From Gemmatimonadota bacterium (GTDB lineage Bacteria; Gemmatimonadota; Gemmatimonadetes; Gemmatimonadales; Gemmatimonadaceae): a stretch of DNA of 64,000 nucleotides. Numbering within the stretch: the stretch's first letter is position 1; each line of letters begins with the position of its first letter. The notes beneath the pieces are model-generated. The model was not told the origin of the DNA. It was given only the letters and a program-made list of their open reading frames with translations, and did not search any database. The position numbers were made by a program, and so were the translations under genes. Positions 1 through 10,485 of the stretch are shown in pieces. The stretch spans positions 1 to 64,000 of the forward strand of contig DAHUXM010000007.1 in assembly GCA_027307165.1 (NCBI GenBank), read 5' to 3'.

Positions 1-275
1 TCGTCTCGCACCCTTTATCGTTGTCGTCTTCTGGCGCGGATGTGCATGCTGCGAGGTCCGTGAAGCCGGGTGGCCTAACGGCTCCACTGCGGTGGGCTCC
101 ATGTTGGTTGCTTGGACGCCCGCGCTGAAGGCGCTACCAAAAGCGCTTGTTGGGTGTCGAGTTGTGTGCCTACTTTCTAGACCCAAGTACGGTCACAGCT
201 GGCGAAAAACTCTAGTACCGACGCTCGGTTTCCCTCTAAAGCCGCGCAAATTATTGAATTCTGTATTTGTACTGT
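1..275. mobile_element. Probable right end of an integrated element (no gene seen)
   Basis: No convincing reading frame is visible here. The stretch ends exactly where a 3' tRNA-Pro fragment starts, and its last 45 bases (about 231-275) are much richer in A and T than the surrounding DNA. When an element integrates into a tRNA gene it rebuilds an intact tRNA at one end and leaves a 3' copy at the other, so this DNA would belong to the element and the body of the element would lie left of the window. No integrase gene is in view. This reading is an inference from the tRNA fragment alone. Confidence 0.4.
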
Positions 276-324
276 CCTGCTTTGGGAGCAGGAGGTCGCC
301 AGTTCGAATCTGGCCGCCCCGACC
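276..324 (+). other. 3' half of tRNA-Pro(UGG): attachment-site scar
   Basis: The anticodon arm (cctgc, loop tttggga, gcagg; anticodon TGG), variable loop, T arm (gccag ttcgaat ctggc) and 3' acceptor strand (cgccccg plus discriminator A) of a tRNA-Pro are all present. The 5' acceptor strand (expected cggggcg) and the D arm are absent: the bases upstream of 276 are unrelated and AT-rich. The fragment therefore cannot make a tRNA. A clean 3' half ending at the acceptor end is what tyrosine-recombinase integration leaves behind. A decayed tRNA gene is the alternative. Confidence 0.75.
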
Positions 325-332
325 TTGCTGCA

Positions 333-371
333 GATAAGGCCCCGCATCGAAGAACGATGCGGGGCCTTATC
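333..371 (+). terminator. Intrinsic terminator after the tRNA-Pro fragment
   Basis: A perfect 17-bp stem (333-349 paired with 355-371) with loop aagaa is followed by a T/C-rich run (ttgctcctg). It sits 8 nt after the tRNA-Pro fragment, as expected if it was the original terminator of the tRNA-Pro gene. This supports the view that chromosomal DNA lies to the right of the fragment. Confidence 0.8.
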
Positions 372-447
372 TTGCTCCTGAGTGTCAATCCGGTCGATAC
401 GGCGGCCCTCGAAACGTCGCGCGATCACCATCCACGCAGGGGACACG

Positions 448-684
448 ATGCGGCACGTGATTCAGCTCACCGGACCCGTCAACAATCTCGTCGCGCTCTG
501 CGACGACGGAACGATGTGGGCATACCGGCCCGATACCTCCGACTGGGCGCCGCTACCGCCCGTCCCGGGCCAGCCCGGAACCACGCAAGCCGCCGACGAC
601 GCGGCGCCGCCCGATCGCGCAGCGCTCGAGCTGCAGGAACACGCAGAGCAAGCGCGTCGGGAGCGCTTTCGAAGCAAGCCGTAG
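448..684 (+). CDS. Small hypothetical protein (78 aa), single propeller-like repeat
   Basis: Unrecognised small protein. The ATG at 448 is preceded by a purine-rich site (cgcagggg) at good spacing; an upstream in-frame GTG at 382 exists but has no ribosome site. The N-terminal half (MRHVIQLTGPVNNLVALCDDGTMWAY, in two stretches) reads like one blade of a WD/tectonin-type repeat: a hydrophobic strand, then DDGTMW, then a W residue and a Pro-rich stretch. The C-terminal third is charged and helical (ALELQEHAEQARRERFRSKP). No signal peptide or membrane segment is seen. It lies just after the terminator at 333-371 and points toward the DUF2267 gene. Function unknown. Confidence 0.6.
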   Translation: MRHVIQLTGPVNNLVALCDDGTMWAYRPDTSDWAPLPPVPGQPGTTQAADDAAPPDRAALELQEHAEQARRERFRSKP

Positions 685-851
685 CGAGCGCAAACGCGCA
701 GGTCGCTCGCAGACTTCGTCATCATCGCGCACTGCGTCTTCGATCACGCGCAACACAAATCAAGCACACGGTCGACCTGGAGCGCGAGGACTGATGCTGC
801 ATCCCGAATTCAATCGGTGAATGCGATCTCATCCACCGCACACTGCATTCG

Positions 852-1277
852 TCAGCTGCTTCCTTCACTCCTGATCGCACCGGCGCGGCCGGAGTTCTGT
901 GTCGGCTGGAACAGCAAAAGGTATTCGCCCGGCAGCTCCGCCCACAGGTGCTTCACCTGGCCTTCGGAAACCGCGTCCGCCAGTGATTGGAGCACGATCC
1001 GAAGCTCGCGAATTGCTTCGTCGGGATCGATGTCTGCGCGGTCGGCGACGCGGTGCACGAACTCATCCACCGGAAAGCGCTCACCAGTACCGCCCGTGCG
1101 ATTTCGCAGGAACCGCGCAATCCCGGGCGGAAGTTGCGACGCGACGTTATCCGCGGTGTCCGCCTCGACCCGCTCGGCGAGTGTCTCCAGTGTGGCGCGC
1201 GTTATGTCGAGCGCGCGCGTGCGGCTATTGAGTCCAGCGTGTTCCTGAACCAGAGCCAGAAAGTCGTCGTACTGCAT
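852..1277 (-). CDS. DUF2267 family protein
   Basis: A 141-residue protein starting with MQYDDFLALV. The ATG at 1277 has a GAGGAG ribosome site on the minus strand. The layout fits DUF2267: an N-terminal helix pair (TRALDITRATLETLAERV), then the motif ASQLPPGIARFL around residues 46-57, then a second helical half (VDEFVHRVADRADIDPDEA) and a closing DAVSEGQVKHLWAELPGEY motif. Members of this family are small soluble helical proteins of unknown function, and some have stress-related neighbours. The longer open frame upstream of this start runs through tRNA-Arg and is spurious. No operon partner. Confidence 0.85.
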   Translation of the reverse strand: MQYDDFLALVQEHAGLNSRTRALDITRATLETLAERVEADTADNVASQLPPGIARFLRNRTGGTGERFPVDEFVHRVADRADIDPDEAIRELRIVLQSLADAVSEGQVKHLWAELPGEYLLLFQPTQNSGRAGAIRSEGSS

Positions 1278-1495
1278 GTGTGGAACTCCTCGCCGAGTAC
1301 CGGCTGCTCGGGTGACGTTCGCTTGCGGGAGTGTTGTGGGGTTATGGTGTGGCAATGCGCGTTCCCGCGCGGTGGTTATGGGCGAGCTCTCGGCGGTTCG
1401 GCGTTCGTCGGGACGGGTTGCGTCATTGTCCGTGAGATCGCGCCGTGCGGGGCTTCCATTTTTGCGTTGTTCGCGCCAAATTGGGAGGCTGTCCA

Positions 1496-1572
1496 GCGCC
1501 AGTAGCTCAGTTGGATAGAGCGGCAGCCTTCTAAGCTGCAGGTCGGGGGTTCGATCCCCTCCTGGCGCACCA
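1496..1572 (+). tRNA. tRNA-Arg(UCU)
   Basis: Complete cloverleaf: acceptor gcgccag/ctggcgc, D arm gctcagttggatagagc, anticodon stem gcagc/gctgc with loop cttctaa (anticodon TCT at 1530-1532), T arm ggggg ttcgatc cccct-type, discriminator A, and an encoded CCA at 1570-1572. It stands in the same orientation as tRNA-Lys and the rrn operon. Confidence 0.95.
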
Positions 1573-1683
1573 CCTGGTAGGTCACGAGCGAGAGCGACCA
1601 CGCGGTTCTGGCGGTGTTCTGCCGCTCGGTTACGGCAAGCGGTGGTGGAACTGGAGTGGTACGCTGGTAGTTCGGAGTGAAAC

Positions 1684-1757
1684 GCCTCCTTAGCTCAATT
1701 GGTTAGAGCAACTGACTCTTAATCAGTAGGTTCTCGGTTCGATTCCGAGAGGGGGCA
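1684..1757 (+). tRNA. tRNA-Lys(CUU)
   Basis: Complete cloverleaf: acceptor gcctcct/agggggc (one G.U pair), D arm gctcaattggttagagc, anticodon stem actga/tcagt with loop ctcttaa (anticodon CTT), T arm ctcgg ttcgatt ccgag, discriminator A. Unlike tRNA-Arg 111 nt upstream, no CCA is encoded (ttt follows), so the end must be added after transcription. Confidence 0.95.
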
Positions 1758-2260
1758 TTTGACATGCTGAGTACGGCAGGGTTGGGAGTCTTGAAAAAGG
1801 CGCGAGAAAAGCGGCCTTCAGGGGTTCCTTTCGAGTGCGGCGTCCGTTAGGATGCGCATCCGCCGTGGTATGGCGAAGTTGTTGCTGATTGTAGAGTGGA
1901 GTTGAGACGTCGAGGCGCGGCCGGAATTGTTGGATTTTCGGAGTGTGGAGAGGCGGTTGCCGCGGTTGTTGGGCAGGGTGCAGGGCGCGGCAGGGAGTGT
2001 AAAGAAAGTTCAAAAAGCCCCTTGCGAAAGAGGGGCAGAAACGATAGGTTGGAAGGCTGCCACTGAAAATGTGGCGAAACGCTGATTGACAATTGAAATT
2101 GAGATCGATGGATGTGCGAGGCTGACTCGTTGATCCGAGGCCATTCAGGGCTTCGGGGAGAGTATAGACCTGAATATTCATAAAAGTGATTCCGGACGTG
2201 GTAGCCTACGGGCTTAAATGTCCGTAGATGGCCGCGTTCGGGAAGAGCTATCAGATTTCT
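1758..2260 (+). promoter_or_regulatory. rrn leader / upstream region
   Basis: These 503 bases between tRNA-Lys and 16S hold no credible gene. A TTGACA box is at 2086-2091, but the -10 at normal spacing is poor, so the promoter is uncertain. A compact hairpin (gcccct 2017-2022 with aggggc 2031-2036) is flanked on its left by a run of As, so on the minus strand it would look like an intrinsic terminator; on the plus strand it may be a leader stem. Just before 16S there is an AT-rich stretch (about 2164-2190) that could contain a second promoter. Confidence 0.5.
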
Positions 2261-3785
<1,525 letters not shown>

Positions 3786-4098: not shown

Positions 4099-7055
<2,957 letters not shown>

Positions 7056-7151
7056 CAAATCTGGGCTGGTCTGAATACCGATCCAGCCCGAGCAACCAAC
7101 AGGTTGCGACTCAGCAGAAAACTGCGATCTTGCGATACGTAGTTTCTTATA

Positions 7152-7173
7152 CCACAATCACTACTGACTTCCG
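7152..7173 (+). other. 23S processing stem, right arm
   Basis: Exact complement of 3932-3953; see the left arm. It lies between the 23S 3' end and 5S. Confidence 0.85.
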
Positions 7174-7184
7174 ATTCTTCCTAC

Positions 7185-7300
7185 GCTGGCGACTAGAGCG
7201 CAGGGGCCACACCCGTTCCCGTTCCGAACACGAGCGTTAAGCCCTGCAGCGCCGATGGTACTCCGATCGAGAGATCGCGGGAGAGTAGGCCGTCGCCGGC
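7185..7300 (+). rRNA. rrf: 5S ribosomal RNA
   Basis: 116 nt. Helix I pairs gctggcgac (7185-7193) with gtcgccggc at the 3' end (7292-7300), with one G.U pair. The conserved loop C/helix III block (ccgttcccgttccgaacacg) and the ggagagtagg block before the 3' end are typical of bacterial 5S. It is followed within 10 nt by the rrn terminator. Confidence 0.95.
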
Positions 7301-7308
7301 ACCTTTTC

Positions 7309-7338
7309 AAAAGGCCGTCCATCACTGGACGGCCTTTT
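7309..7338 (+). terminator. rrn operon terminator
   Basis: A 13-bp perfect stem (aaaaggccgtcca 7309-7321 with tggacggcctttt 7326-7338), loop tcac, and a further T-rich tail (gtatttt). Its 3' end is only 18 nt from the era start codon. Confidence 0.9.
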
Positions 7339-7356
7339 GTATTTTCCACTACCACC

Positions 7357-8226
7357 ATGACCAGAGCCGGAACAGTCACCGTCGCCGGAAAGCCAAACGC
7401 TGGCAAATCCACGCTCCTCAACCGACTCGTCGGCCAGAAGCTCAGCATCACCAGCGACAAGCCACAGTCCACACGGGATCGCATCGTCGGCGTCCGCACC
7501 GAGGGCGATACCCAGATGATCCTGGCCGATACCCCAGGCCTCCTGGATCCCGGCTACCTGCTCCAGACCGCCATGCAGTCAGCCGCCGTTTCAGCTCTCC
7601 GCGACGCCGACTGCATAGTCTACGTGTGTGACGCACGCGAGGGTGTCCCGGGTCCTCTCAACGAAGTCGCCGGACTCGAATCTCCACCACGCGCTCCAAT
7701 CATCGTCGCACTCAATAAATCCGATCTGCTCGATCGTAGACAACGCGAGAAGCTGGCCCTCGCCCTGCCGGATGCTATCTTCATCTCCGCGCTCACCGGT
7801 GAGGGATTTCCTGCCCTCATCGCGGCGATCGAAAGCCATCTTCCCGAAAGCCCCTTCCTGTTTCCGGTCGAAGACGTAAGCATCCATTCAGTCCGCTTTC
7901 TCGCAGCGGAGCTCATCCGCGAGACGGCGCTCGAGCAGCTGGGCGCTGAGGTGCCGTACAGCGTCGCTTGCGAGATCGAAGAATTTCGCGAAGATCGCTC
8001 GCCCATCTACATTCGTGCCGTGATCCACGTCGAACGCGACAGCCAGAAGCGAATACTCATCGGCGAGAAGGGAAAGCGCATCAAGCTCCTCGGCACAGCT
8101 GCCCGTAAGAAAATTGAAACTCTCGTCGGCGCAACCGTGTACCTCGACCTTTGGGTCAAAGTATTGCAGAATTGGAGAAAGGACGCAGCGGCACTTCGCC
8201 GCTTTGGTTACACCACACACGACTGA
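7357..8226 (+). CDS. era: GTPase Era, ribosome small-subunit assembly
   Basis: 289 aa, near the usual 300. Era binds the 3' end of 16S precursor and helps mature the 30S subunit. The G domain shows G1 GKPNAGKS at residues 11-18, the switch-I threonine region (STRDRIVGV), G3 DTPG at 58-61, G4 NKSD at 120-123 and G5 SAL at 144-146. The C-terminal KH domain has the GEKGKRIK signature at 236-243. I chose the ATG at 7357 because the G domain begins immediately after it; the longer upstream frame overlaps the 5S gene and the terminator. No Shine-Dalgarno site is visible, and only 18 nt separate the ATG from the rrn terminator. A Trm112-like gene follows 7 nt downstream. Confidence 0.96.
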   Translation: MTRAGTVTVAGKPNAGKSTLLNRLVGQKLSITSDKPQSTRDRIVGVRTEGDTQMILADTPGLLDPGYLLQTAMQSAAVSALRDADCIVYVCDAREGVPGPLNEVAGLESPPRAPIIVALNKSDLLDRRQREKLALALPDAIFISALTGEGFPALIAAIESHLPESPFLFPVEDVSIHSVRFLAAELIRETALEQLGAEVPYSVACEIEEFREDRSPIYIRAVIHVERDSQKRILIGEKGKRIKLLGTAARKKIETLVGATVYLDLWVKVLQNWRKDAAALRRFGYTTHD

Positions 8227-8233
8227 AGCCAAC

Positions 8234-8401
8234 ATGCCACTAGCACCGCAGCTCCTCGAAATACTCGTCTGCCCCAAGTGCAAGGGGCCGCTGGAATACA
8301 ACGAGGCAGAGGATGCATTGACGTGCCAGCGTGACAAGCTCAAATATCCGGTGCGCGACGGGATCCCGATAATGCTGATCGACGAGGCGACACCGGTATA
8401 G
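8234..8401 (+). CDS. Trm112 family protein (UPF0434/YcaR-like)
   Basis: 55 aa. The small zinc-ribbon-like fold of the Trm112/YcaR family is recognisable: LLEILVCPKCKGPLEY near the N-terminus (one CxxC pair), a later single Cys (LTCQ), then YPVRDGIPIML and the acidic end IDEATPV. Eukaryotic and archaeal Trm112 activates methyltransferases; the role of the short bacterial versions is not settled, and they often lie in lipid A or cell-wall neighbourhoods. The gene starts 7 nt after era and ends 1 nt before the next gene, so it is probably co-transcribed. Confidence 0.9.
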   Translation: MPLAPQLLEILVCPKCKGPLEYNEAEDALTCQRDKLKYPVRDGIPIMLIDEATPV

Positions 8402-8402
8402 C

Positions 8403-9383
8403 GTGGCGCGCATCCTGACTGACAGAGCCGCAACCACCCTAGCTGCACTAGTGGCAGCATTCACCGTGGCTGCGGCAGTCGCGTACCCGCGCACGTCATT
8501 CGCACAGTCCGGCCAGGAGGGGATATTTCTCCTGCTCCCGGTAGGTGCTCGCGCCGTCGGAATGGGCGAAGCGGTCGTCGCGCAGCGCGGCGGCAGCGAC
8601 CTGCTGTGGTGGAATCCGTCCGGCATCGTCGGTAACGGTCCACAGACGCACGAGGTCGCGCTGCATCATTCCACCACCGTCGTAGGCCAGGGAAACGCGC
8701 TTGCCTTCGTCTGGCCGGCGGACAAAAGGACGGCGTTCGGTCTCCTGGTCAACGTTCTCGATCTCGGGCAGCAGACGCTCACCGACGAACAGGGGAACAG
8801 CATCGGCGTCGCCAGTCCCACTGACTACTCCGTGGCCGCAACCTACGCCGTGGCGCCCGCCCCCTGGCTGGCGCTCGGTGTGACCGCAAAACACGTGGAG
8901 GCCGGAATTCCGTGTTCAGGCGTTTGCAGCGGGCTCGGAATCGCCAGCTCGCGATCCAACGGCTTCGACATCGGTATGCAGTTTCGCCCCGATGCAATTC
9001 CGCTCACTCTTGCGGCAGCCGCCCGCAATCTGGGGATTGCCGGGGCGGCGGGCCGGCCCGGCCGCATCGACCTGGGCGCCGACTACAAGGTCATGGCATT
9101 CGCGCGGGGAAACGACAGCGTCGAAGTTCATGGTGCCGCGGACCTGGTCTCGACAGTCAAGATGGATAGCACCACGGCTCGACTCGGCACCGACATCGTC
9201 GTCGACCAGCGGCTACACGTTCGCGCTGGCTACATCCGCGACCCGGTGAACGGTTCCGGTGGTGCAATAGGTGTAGGGCTCCAATCTGGTAAACTAGTGT
9301 TTGACATCGGACGGACATACGGGGGGCTCACGGGTACGAACGACAAGCCCCCGACGTATTTCTCGCTCCGATATTTGTGGTAG
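8403..9383 (+). CDS. PorV/PorQ-like outer-membrane beta-barrel protein
   Basis: 326 aa with a GTG start 1 nt after the preceding stop. A signal peptide covers about residues 1-34 (basic start, Ala-rich hydrophobic core, cut after RTSFA). The motif LLPVGARAVGMGEA (about 44-57), followed by LWWNPSGI, is the hallmark of the PorV/UPF0164 branch of the FadL-like barrels. The remainder alternates beta strands and ends in an aromatic residue (SLRYLW), the C-terminal signal for BAM insertion. Related proteins in Bacteroidetes serve type IX secretion, but many phyla carry copies with no T9SS, and no T9SS gene is seen here. I call only the family. Confidence 0.8.
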   Translation: MARILTDRAATTLAALVAAFTVAAAVAYPRTSFAQSGQEGIFLLLPVGARAVGMGEAVVAQRGGSDLLWWNPSGIVGNGPQTHEVALHHSTTVVGQGNALAFVWPADKRTAFGLLVNVLDLGQQTLTDEQGNSIGVASPTDYSVAATYAVAPAPWLALGVTAKHVEAGIPCSGVCSGLGIASSRSNGFDIGMQFRPDAIPLTLAAAARNLGIAGAAGRPGRIDLGADYKVMAFARGNDSVEVHGAADLVSTVKMDSTTARLGTDIVVDQRLHVRAGYIRDPVNGSGGAIGVGLQSGKLVFDIGRTYGGLTGTNDKPPTYFSLRYLW

Positions 9384-9483
9384 GTTGCGTGGCAGGTTGT
9401 AGAGCCCGGCGCAGGCCGGCTGCACAAGTACCTTATGAGGCTGCCGCGATGCCTGCCTGTGCGGTTATCTTCCAGGGATCGAG

Positions 9484-10485
9484 ATGACGGACCAGTCGCT
9501 TTCAAGCCCCCAGCTCCCCATAGCCTTGCTTCTTCAGGCCGTGGAGGCACAACTCCCTCCGTCAGTTGCGGGGTGGGTCGATCGCCAGCCGGTAACAGTC
9601 GTTCCGGTCACGTCGATCGACGAGCTGATGGTCTATGCGCTGCGCTCCCGGCCACGCTTTATCGTCATAGACGGACGATCCCCGGTCGGGGATCCGCTGG
9701 CTGCCTGCCGCAAGATCAAGCGCGATCCGTTTACCGGAGTGGTCCCGGTCGTGTACGTCGCGCCAGACGGAATGCCAGCGCGCGTAGAGGCGCTGGATGC
9801 ACTGGCGGATGACGTGGTATCGGCCGAGATGGACGACGCGGAGACTCTGACACGGCTGCGCTGCACACTGGCGCGCTCGGATCGCGACGTCAACGTCCAT
9901 CCTTCGACACGGCTGCCCGGTGCGCCGGCGATTCACGACGCAATTCGGGACCGGCTCGATACGCCATTCGCGGCCTGTTATGCGGACCTCGACCATTTCA
10001 AGGAATTCAACGATCGCTACAGCTACGTCGAGGGCGACCGCGTAATTCGCCTGCTGGCGGCACTGCTTCACGATACCGTTCGCGGCCTCGTCGGCGACGA
10101 CGGATTTGTGGGTCATATCGGCGGCGACGATTTTATTTTCCTGATTCCGCGCGACCGAGTTGACGATGTGTGCACTGAAATCGTCCAGACATTTGATACG
10201 CTCATCGCGTATCAGTATTCCGAGAACGACCGGCGCGCAGGCTATTTTTTCGGGAAGGATCGACGTGGCCAGCTGCATCGTGTTCCCTTGATGACGCTTT
10301 CGATCGGCGTCGTTACGAACGAACGGCGCACATTCACGAGCTCCGTGGGTGTGAGCGCGCTTGCTACCGAAATGAAGACGTACGCGAAGACGCTTCCCGG
10401 ATCGGTCTACGCCATCGACAGGCGAACAGATGACCGCTCCGAGATCCAGACGCCGCAGTTGACTGAAACCGGTGCCCGCCAATGA
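9484..10485 (+). CDS. Diguanylate cyclase with receiver-like N-domain
   Basis: 333 aa. The N-terminal 130 residues resemble a degenerate response-regulator receiver (FIVIDGRSPVGD around 59-70, with D63 in the place of the phospho-acceptor, and VVPVVYVAP as the later strand). The C-terminal GGDEF domain has the substrate-binding YADLDHFKEFND block at 166-177 and the active-site loop GGDDF at 213-217, so it should make cyclic di-GMP from two GTP. No clear RxxD inhibitory site precedes the loop. Its stop overlaps the start of the zinc-ribbon gene by 4 nt, which suggests translational coupling. It may respond to a partner kinase not in this window. Confidence 0.85.
   Translation: MTDQSLSSPQLPIALLLQAVEAQLPPSVAGWVDRQPVTVVPVTSIDELMVYALRSRPRFIVIDGRSPVGDPLAACRKIKRDPFTGVVPVVYVAPDGMPARVEALDALADDVVSAEMDDAETLTRLRCTLARSDRDVNVHPSTRLPGAPAIHDAIRDRLDTPFAACYADLDHFKEFNDRYSYVEGDRVIRLLAALLHDTVRGLVGDDGFVGHIGGDDFIFLIPRDRVDDVCTEIVQTFDTLIAYQYSENDRRAGYFFGKDRRGQLHRVPLMTLSIGVVTNERRTFTSSVGVSALATEMKTYAKTLPGSVYAIDRRTDDRSEIQTPQLTETGARQ

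Follow-up and report, generated by a model that had tools for sequence, protein, structure and literature searches.

Does the incomplete tRNA-Pro gene near the left end of contig C12 of G000, a Gemmatimonadaceae genome of 3.7 Mb in 37 contigs, mark the edge of an integrated mobile element? Insertion into tRNA genes is a well-known settling route of such elements, a principle found in textbooks. A preliminary description of the first 64 kb of this contig (the whole stretch analyzed here, referred to as the window) had proposed it for this locus, reading a clean 3′ half of tRNA-Pro at 276–324, joined to AT-rich DNA and followed by a perfect terminator, as the right end of an element inserted at the 3′ end of the tRNA gene. 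Window position 1 is the start of C12, and the assembly holds nothing to the left of it.

The tRNA-Pro(UGG) fragment and its intact counterpart

The 3′ piece is real, with a correction of one base to its proposed extent: it occupies 276–323 (+ strand) rather than 276–324. These 48 bp run from the 5′ strand of the anticodon stem (tRNA position 28) to position 75 and are identical at 48/48 bases to part of an intact gene on contig C37. As had been claimed, the 5′ half is missing, tRNA-Pro(UGG) positions 1–27 being absent. ARAGORN calls no tRNA at 276–324, and the Rfam tRNA model gives a sub-threshold partial match at 268–316 (23.2 bits; gathering score, 29). The hairpin at 333–371 (+ strand) also stands as described, with a perfect 17-bp stem (333–349/355–371) and a 5-nt loop, and it is very stable (z-score, −8.4). 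An equivalent hairpin stands 3′ of the intact tRNA in G003, a genome of the same genus, which identifies the window copy as the original tRNA-Pro terminator, with the element now lying between it and the intact gene. The claim of a junction with AT-rich DNA holds only locally; the DNA directly left of the fragment is AT-rich, but positions 1–275 as a whole have 55% GC, against 62% for the whole window. A genome-wide search for a 43-nt pattern with three or fewer mismatches yields two forward matches and none for the reversed control, and with these counts in a 3.7-Mb genome the exact 48-bp repeat is not due to chance.

Outside the window, the 48-bp core is found exactly once, at C37:496080–496127. 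It lies within an intact tRNA-Pro(UGG) gene (C37:496053–496127) that has the same orientation as the fragment, as anticipated, and that stands 629 bp from the contig end. Genes resembling rph and rdgB (named from reading frames, without a family search) directly precede it, and it is followed by the terminator ACCCCGCATCGGTTTACGGTGCGGGGTTTT. An integrase gene had been expected near one of the junctions, and the C-terminal part of a tyrosine integrase (about 160 residues) is found beside the intact tRNA, at C37:496263–496754 on the minus strand, with its C terminus toward the tRNA. This remnant matches PF00589 with an E value of 2e-5 and 24.8 bits, slightly below the cut-off of 27.1 and with X at both of its stops, and it also matches PHROG 216 'integrase'. 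It is 45–51% identical to the closest intact integrases and keeps the motifs TGRR, DKK, HAYRR, GGW, and CYQ, which we take to carry the tyrosine-recombinase catalytic residues. There are two in-frame TAG stops, close to the C37 end, where assembly errors are possible. C37 breaks within the gene, and a search of the rest of the G000 assembly did not recover the N-terminal part; searches likewise found no homologue in G003 and no solved structure that matches the integrase by sequence. The broken gene suggests that the G000 element has lost independent mobility.

The empty site and the right arm

The intact tRNA and the fragment sit on separate contigs, both of which stop shortly after entering the element. 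In G003 the same locus is uninterrupted, with the order rdgB, tRNA-Pro, hairpin, open reading frame, DUF2267, tRNA-Arg(UCU), and tRNA-Lys(CUU), so the empty site sought in a related genome does exist. C37 matches G003 at 95.7%, ending at the last base of the 48-bp repeat, and window 276–1823 matches it at 92.6%, starting at the first base of the repeat. Beyond the repeat edges, zero further bases are common to G003 on either side, and the restored tRNA on C37 is identical to the G003 tRNA-Pro at 75/75 positions. The host flank in the window comprises a small open reading frame at 382–684 (+ strand; within the G003 nucleotide homology, no Pfam match), a DUF2267 protein gene at 852–1277 (− strand; PF10025, E 1.5e-31), tRNA-Arg(UCU) at 1496–1572 (+ strand), and tRNA-Lys(CUU) at 1684–1757 (+ strand), the two tRNAs being called by ARAGORN and syntenic in G003, G002, and G162. 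Collinearity of C37 and C12 with G003 implies that the two contig ends are adjacent, and an empty site with edges exactly at the 48-bp repeat argues for tRNA-targeted integration. We are highly confident that an element recombined into tRNA-Pro(UGG), leaving attL on C37 and attR at window 1–323.

We propose that this element encoded a tyrosine integrase and that its attP reproduced tRNA-Pro(UGG) from the anticodon stem through the 3′ end and carried its own terminator. The attP would have recombined with the chromosomal tRNA-Pro(UGG) between rdgB and tRNA-Arg/tRNA-Lys, probably with a crossover near the anticodon. On insertion, the tRNA at the left end (attL, C37) would have acquired an identical 3′ half and another terminator from the element, and the original 3′ half would have been displaced, together with its terminator, to the right end (attR, window 276–371). 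The end of C37 and the start of C12 would then be the two ends of one element, the autonomous mobility of which may have been lost through the two integrase stops.

Positions 1–275 of the window (+ strand) form the attR arm and are apparently noncoding; they have no G003 match at the site, no Pfam hit in the open frame, and homology to the G003 flank starts only at 276. By local alignment, the part at 141–275 (+ strand) shares homology with the right arms of six related element ends (two each from G162 and G167, and one each from G084 and G174). The scores range from 13.5 to 37 and average 23.5, whereas none of 400 randomly drawn window segments averages above 12.8; the lowest score, that of G167b (13.5), nevertheless falls within the range of its own controls. 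Independent blastn matches, with E values of 1e-7 to 1e-4, support the homology, and window 207–323 is 77% identical to G174. The most conserved arm motif is ACCGACGCTCGGTTTCCCTCTA at 217–238 (+ strand), marked by a CCGACGC block that is invariant in the seven aligned arms and sits some 50 bp to the left of the core. GTTTC-type direct repeats are recognizable in the relatives and degenerate in the window, in the left part of 141–275. The conserved block and these repeats are putative integrase arm-binding sites. No 8-mer of the right arm (275 bp) recurs in the initial 250 bp of the left arm, and the G000 copy therefore lacks strict arm repeats across its two ends. The degenerate arm, like the two integrase stops, suggests that the element is old and immobile, with the caveat that errors are possible at contig ends.

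The missing interior and alternative readings

The interior of the element is an assembly gap, C37 breaking off 629 bp and C12 275 bp inside it, and no overlap of window 1–275 with any other G000 contig was found. Contigs C18 and C19 being masked, three candidates for the missing DNA were considered among the readable contigs. Contig C9, which is small and carries an intact integrase, is ruled out, as much of it is collinear with one G003 region. The right part of C17 (7236–12539) and the first ∼12 kb of C10 were not assigned to the element; both continue into chromosomal DNA collinear with other regions of G003. The C17 segment, strain-specific and mostly absent from G003, encodes a pair of DNA methyltransferases and a PLD-domain (NgoFVII/DrmC-like) nuclease, and an IS3-like fragment closes the contig. 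C10 carries a complete EcoRII-type cassette (C5-methyltransferase, Vsr, and EcoRII) at 6779–9719, which has 50–67% identity to the cassette of a tRNA-Pro element in G117 and is surrounded by ∼12 kb mostly absent from G003. The accessory cargo that the preliminary description allowed for is, for the G000 element itself, a prediction by analogy with relatives.

It is possible, though we think it unlikely, that little or no cargo lies between the junctions, and that the element has collapsed to a degraded integrase and two att copies. This is a variant of the integration reading, and the two in-frame integrase stops are consistent with it, as are the many truncated integrase C termini beside tRNAs in relatives and a 2-kb remnant that stands in tandem with a larger element in G162. 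However, a short single-copy remnant would normally assemble, the break here hinting instead at a long, repeated, or variable interior, and the two core copies are still identical at all 48 positions. A lone tRNA fragment could also arise as a pseudogene through local duplication or decay with no integration at all, but this is very improbable here: the G003 site has one intact tRNA with flanks that match both contigs to the base, an integrase adjoins the intact copy, and the right arm is homologous to known element ends. Least probable of all is a split, permuted, or intron-containing tRNA gene, for although the 5′ half is not beside the 3′ half, the fragment holds the full anticodon stem-loop and is thus not broken in the anticodon loop, C37 carries an intact tRNA-Pro(UGG), and window 1–2200 has no Rfam intron match.

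Related elements in Gemmatimonadota and known systems

Integration into tRNA-Pro(UGG), the reading that we prefer, can be set beside the behavior of related integrases. The integrase family is found mostly in Gemmatimonadota, and among 46 integrase loci from a species-level genome collection, 30 have a tRNA within 2.5 kb (Pro in 14, Ala in 7, Gln in 3, and others in the rest); the tRNA is on the strand opposite to the integrase in 27 of these 30, as on C37. Truncated integrase C termini beside tRNAs are numerous. The fragment is not simply present in all relatives, the circumstance that would have told against an insertion; G003 contains a single copy, and of 179 family genomes, 130 contain the 22-mer CCTGCTTTGGGAGCAGGAGGTC, 8 of them at least twice, a count that covers UGG genes only and underestimates occupancy in fragmented assemblies.

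In G162, of another genus, the syntenic tRNA-Pro(UGG) site upstream of tRNA-Arg and tRNA-Lys is occupied by an element of 66.6 kb and, after it, a remnant of 2.2 kb, both closed by a core copy starting at tRNA position 28, as in the window. The larger element encodes a MobA/VirD2 relaxase, a type IV secretion system (T4SS) coupling protein, and TrbI, together with a DISARM DrmE C-terminal domain (DrmE_C) and type IIG-like restriction genes. Element and remnant together span G162:C12:273759–342711, a good place to seek defense genes, with DrmE_C, HEPN/Toprim, and several unannotated proteins of 650–1200 residues close by. Elements at tRNA-Pro(CGG) are smaller: 7.5 kb in G117 (C5-methyltransferase, Vsr, and EcoRII), 14.9 kb in G115 (two methyltransferases, a ResIII helicase, and an AAA_5 ATPase), and 6.8 and 5.3 kb in tandem in G167. 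Within the genus of G000, an integrase C-terminal remnant lies beside tRNA-Pro(CGG) in G001 (C195, 2201–2542), which shows that integration by the family there has not been confined to a single tRNA-Pro gene. In G002 (C63, ∼3680–3765), an intact tRNA-Pro is followed by NN and another tRNA-Pro 3′ end, whose terminator resembles the one at the G000 attL, and the DNA from there up to tRNA-Arg is nonhomologous; this is probably another occupied or scaffolded-over integration. No match to the integrase of an intact relative was found among 50,697 phage records, the interior of the G000 element itself being in the assembly gap.

We judge the chances to be about even that these elements form a Gemmatimonadota-wide, tRNA-Pro-targeting family, ranging from compact forms of 7–15 kb (integrase, helix-turn-helix, and ATPase) to a conjugative form of 67 kb, which shuttles antiphage defense genes. 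If so, the G000 element would hold unseen defense cargo. The regional interest lies in a Gemmatimonadaceae tRNA-Pro hotspot for defense islands: the attachment site, arm structure, and integrase are pinned for a mobile-element family of a phylum from which few species have been cultured, and the tRNA-Pro genes, above all rdgB–tRNA-Pro(UGG)–tRNA-Arg–tRNA-Lys, provide an address for variable defense islands across the family. Searches for literature on gemmatimonad tRNA-Pro integrases or Gemmatimonadota integrative elements, which mostly did not extend to subscription papers, found nothing relevant among the matches listed, those for the latter being ecological titles.

The closest parallels are nonetheless familiar. 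The G162 integrative and conjugative element shares with that of G000 the site, the core start at position 28, a related integrase, and a homologous right arm; it differs in its 66.6 kb with conjugation and defense genes, whereas the G000 interior falls in an assembly gap. The G117 and G115 elements also have the integrase by the tRNA on the opposite strand and a 3′-tRNA repeat at the far end, but carry, respectively, the EcoRII-type restriction-modification cassette with Vsr and the two methyltransferases, ResIII helicase, and AAA_5 ATPase. Genomic islands in tRNA genes are catalogued in Islander, where the general principle is described (PMC4383910), and the likeness to these islands is close: a regenerated tRNA at one end and a displaced 3′ fragment at the other, a tyrosine integrase inside, an attachment site in the anticodon region, and, in relatives of G000, tandem arrays. 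Nothing essential sets G000 apart from them, although its interior is unassembled and its integrase broken. The G000 event is an ordinary case of a known type, the tRNA-gene genomic island, in a little-studied lineage.
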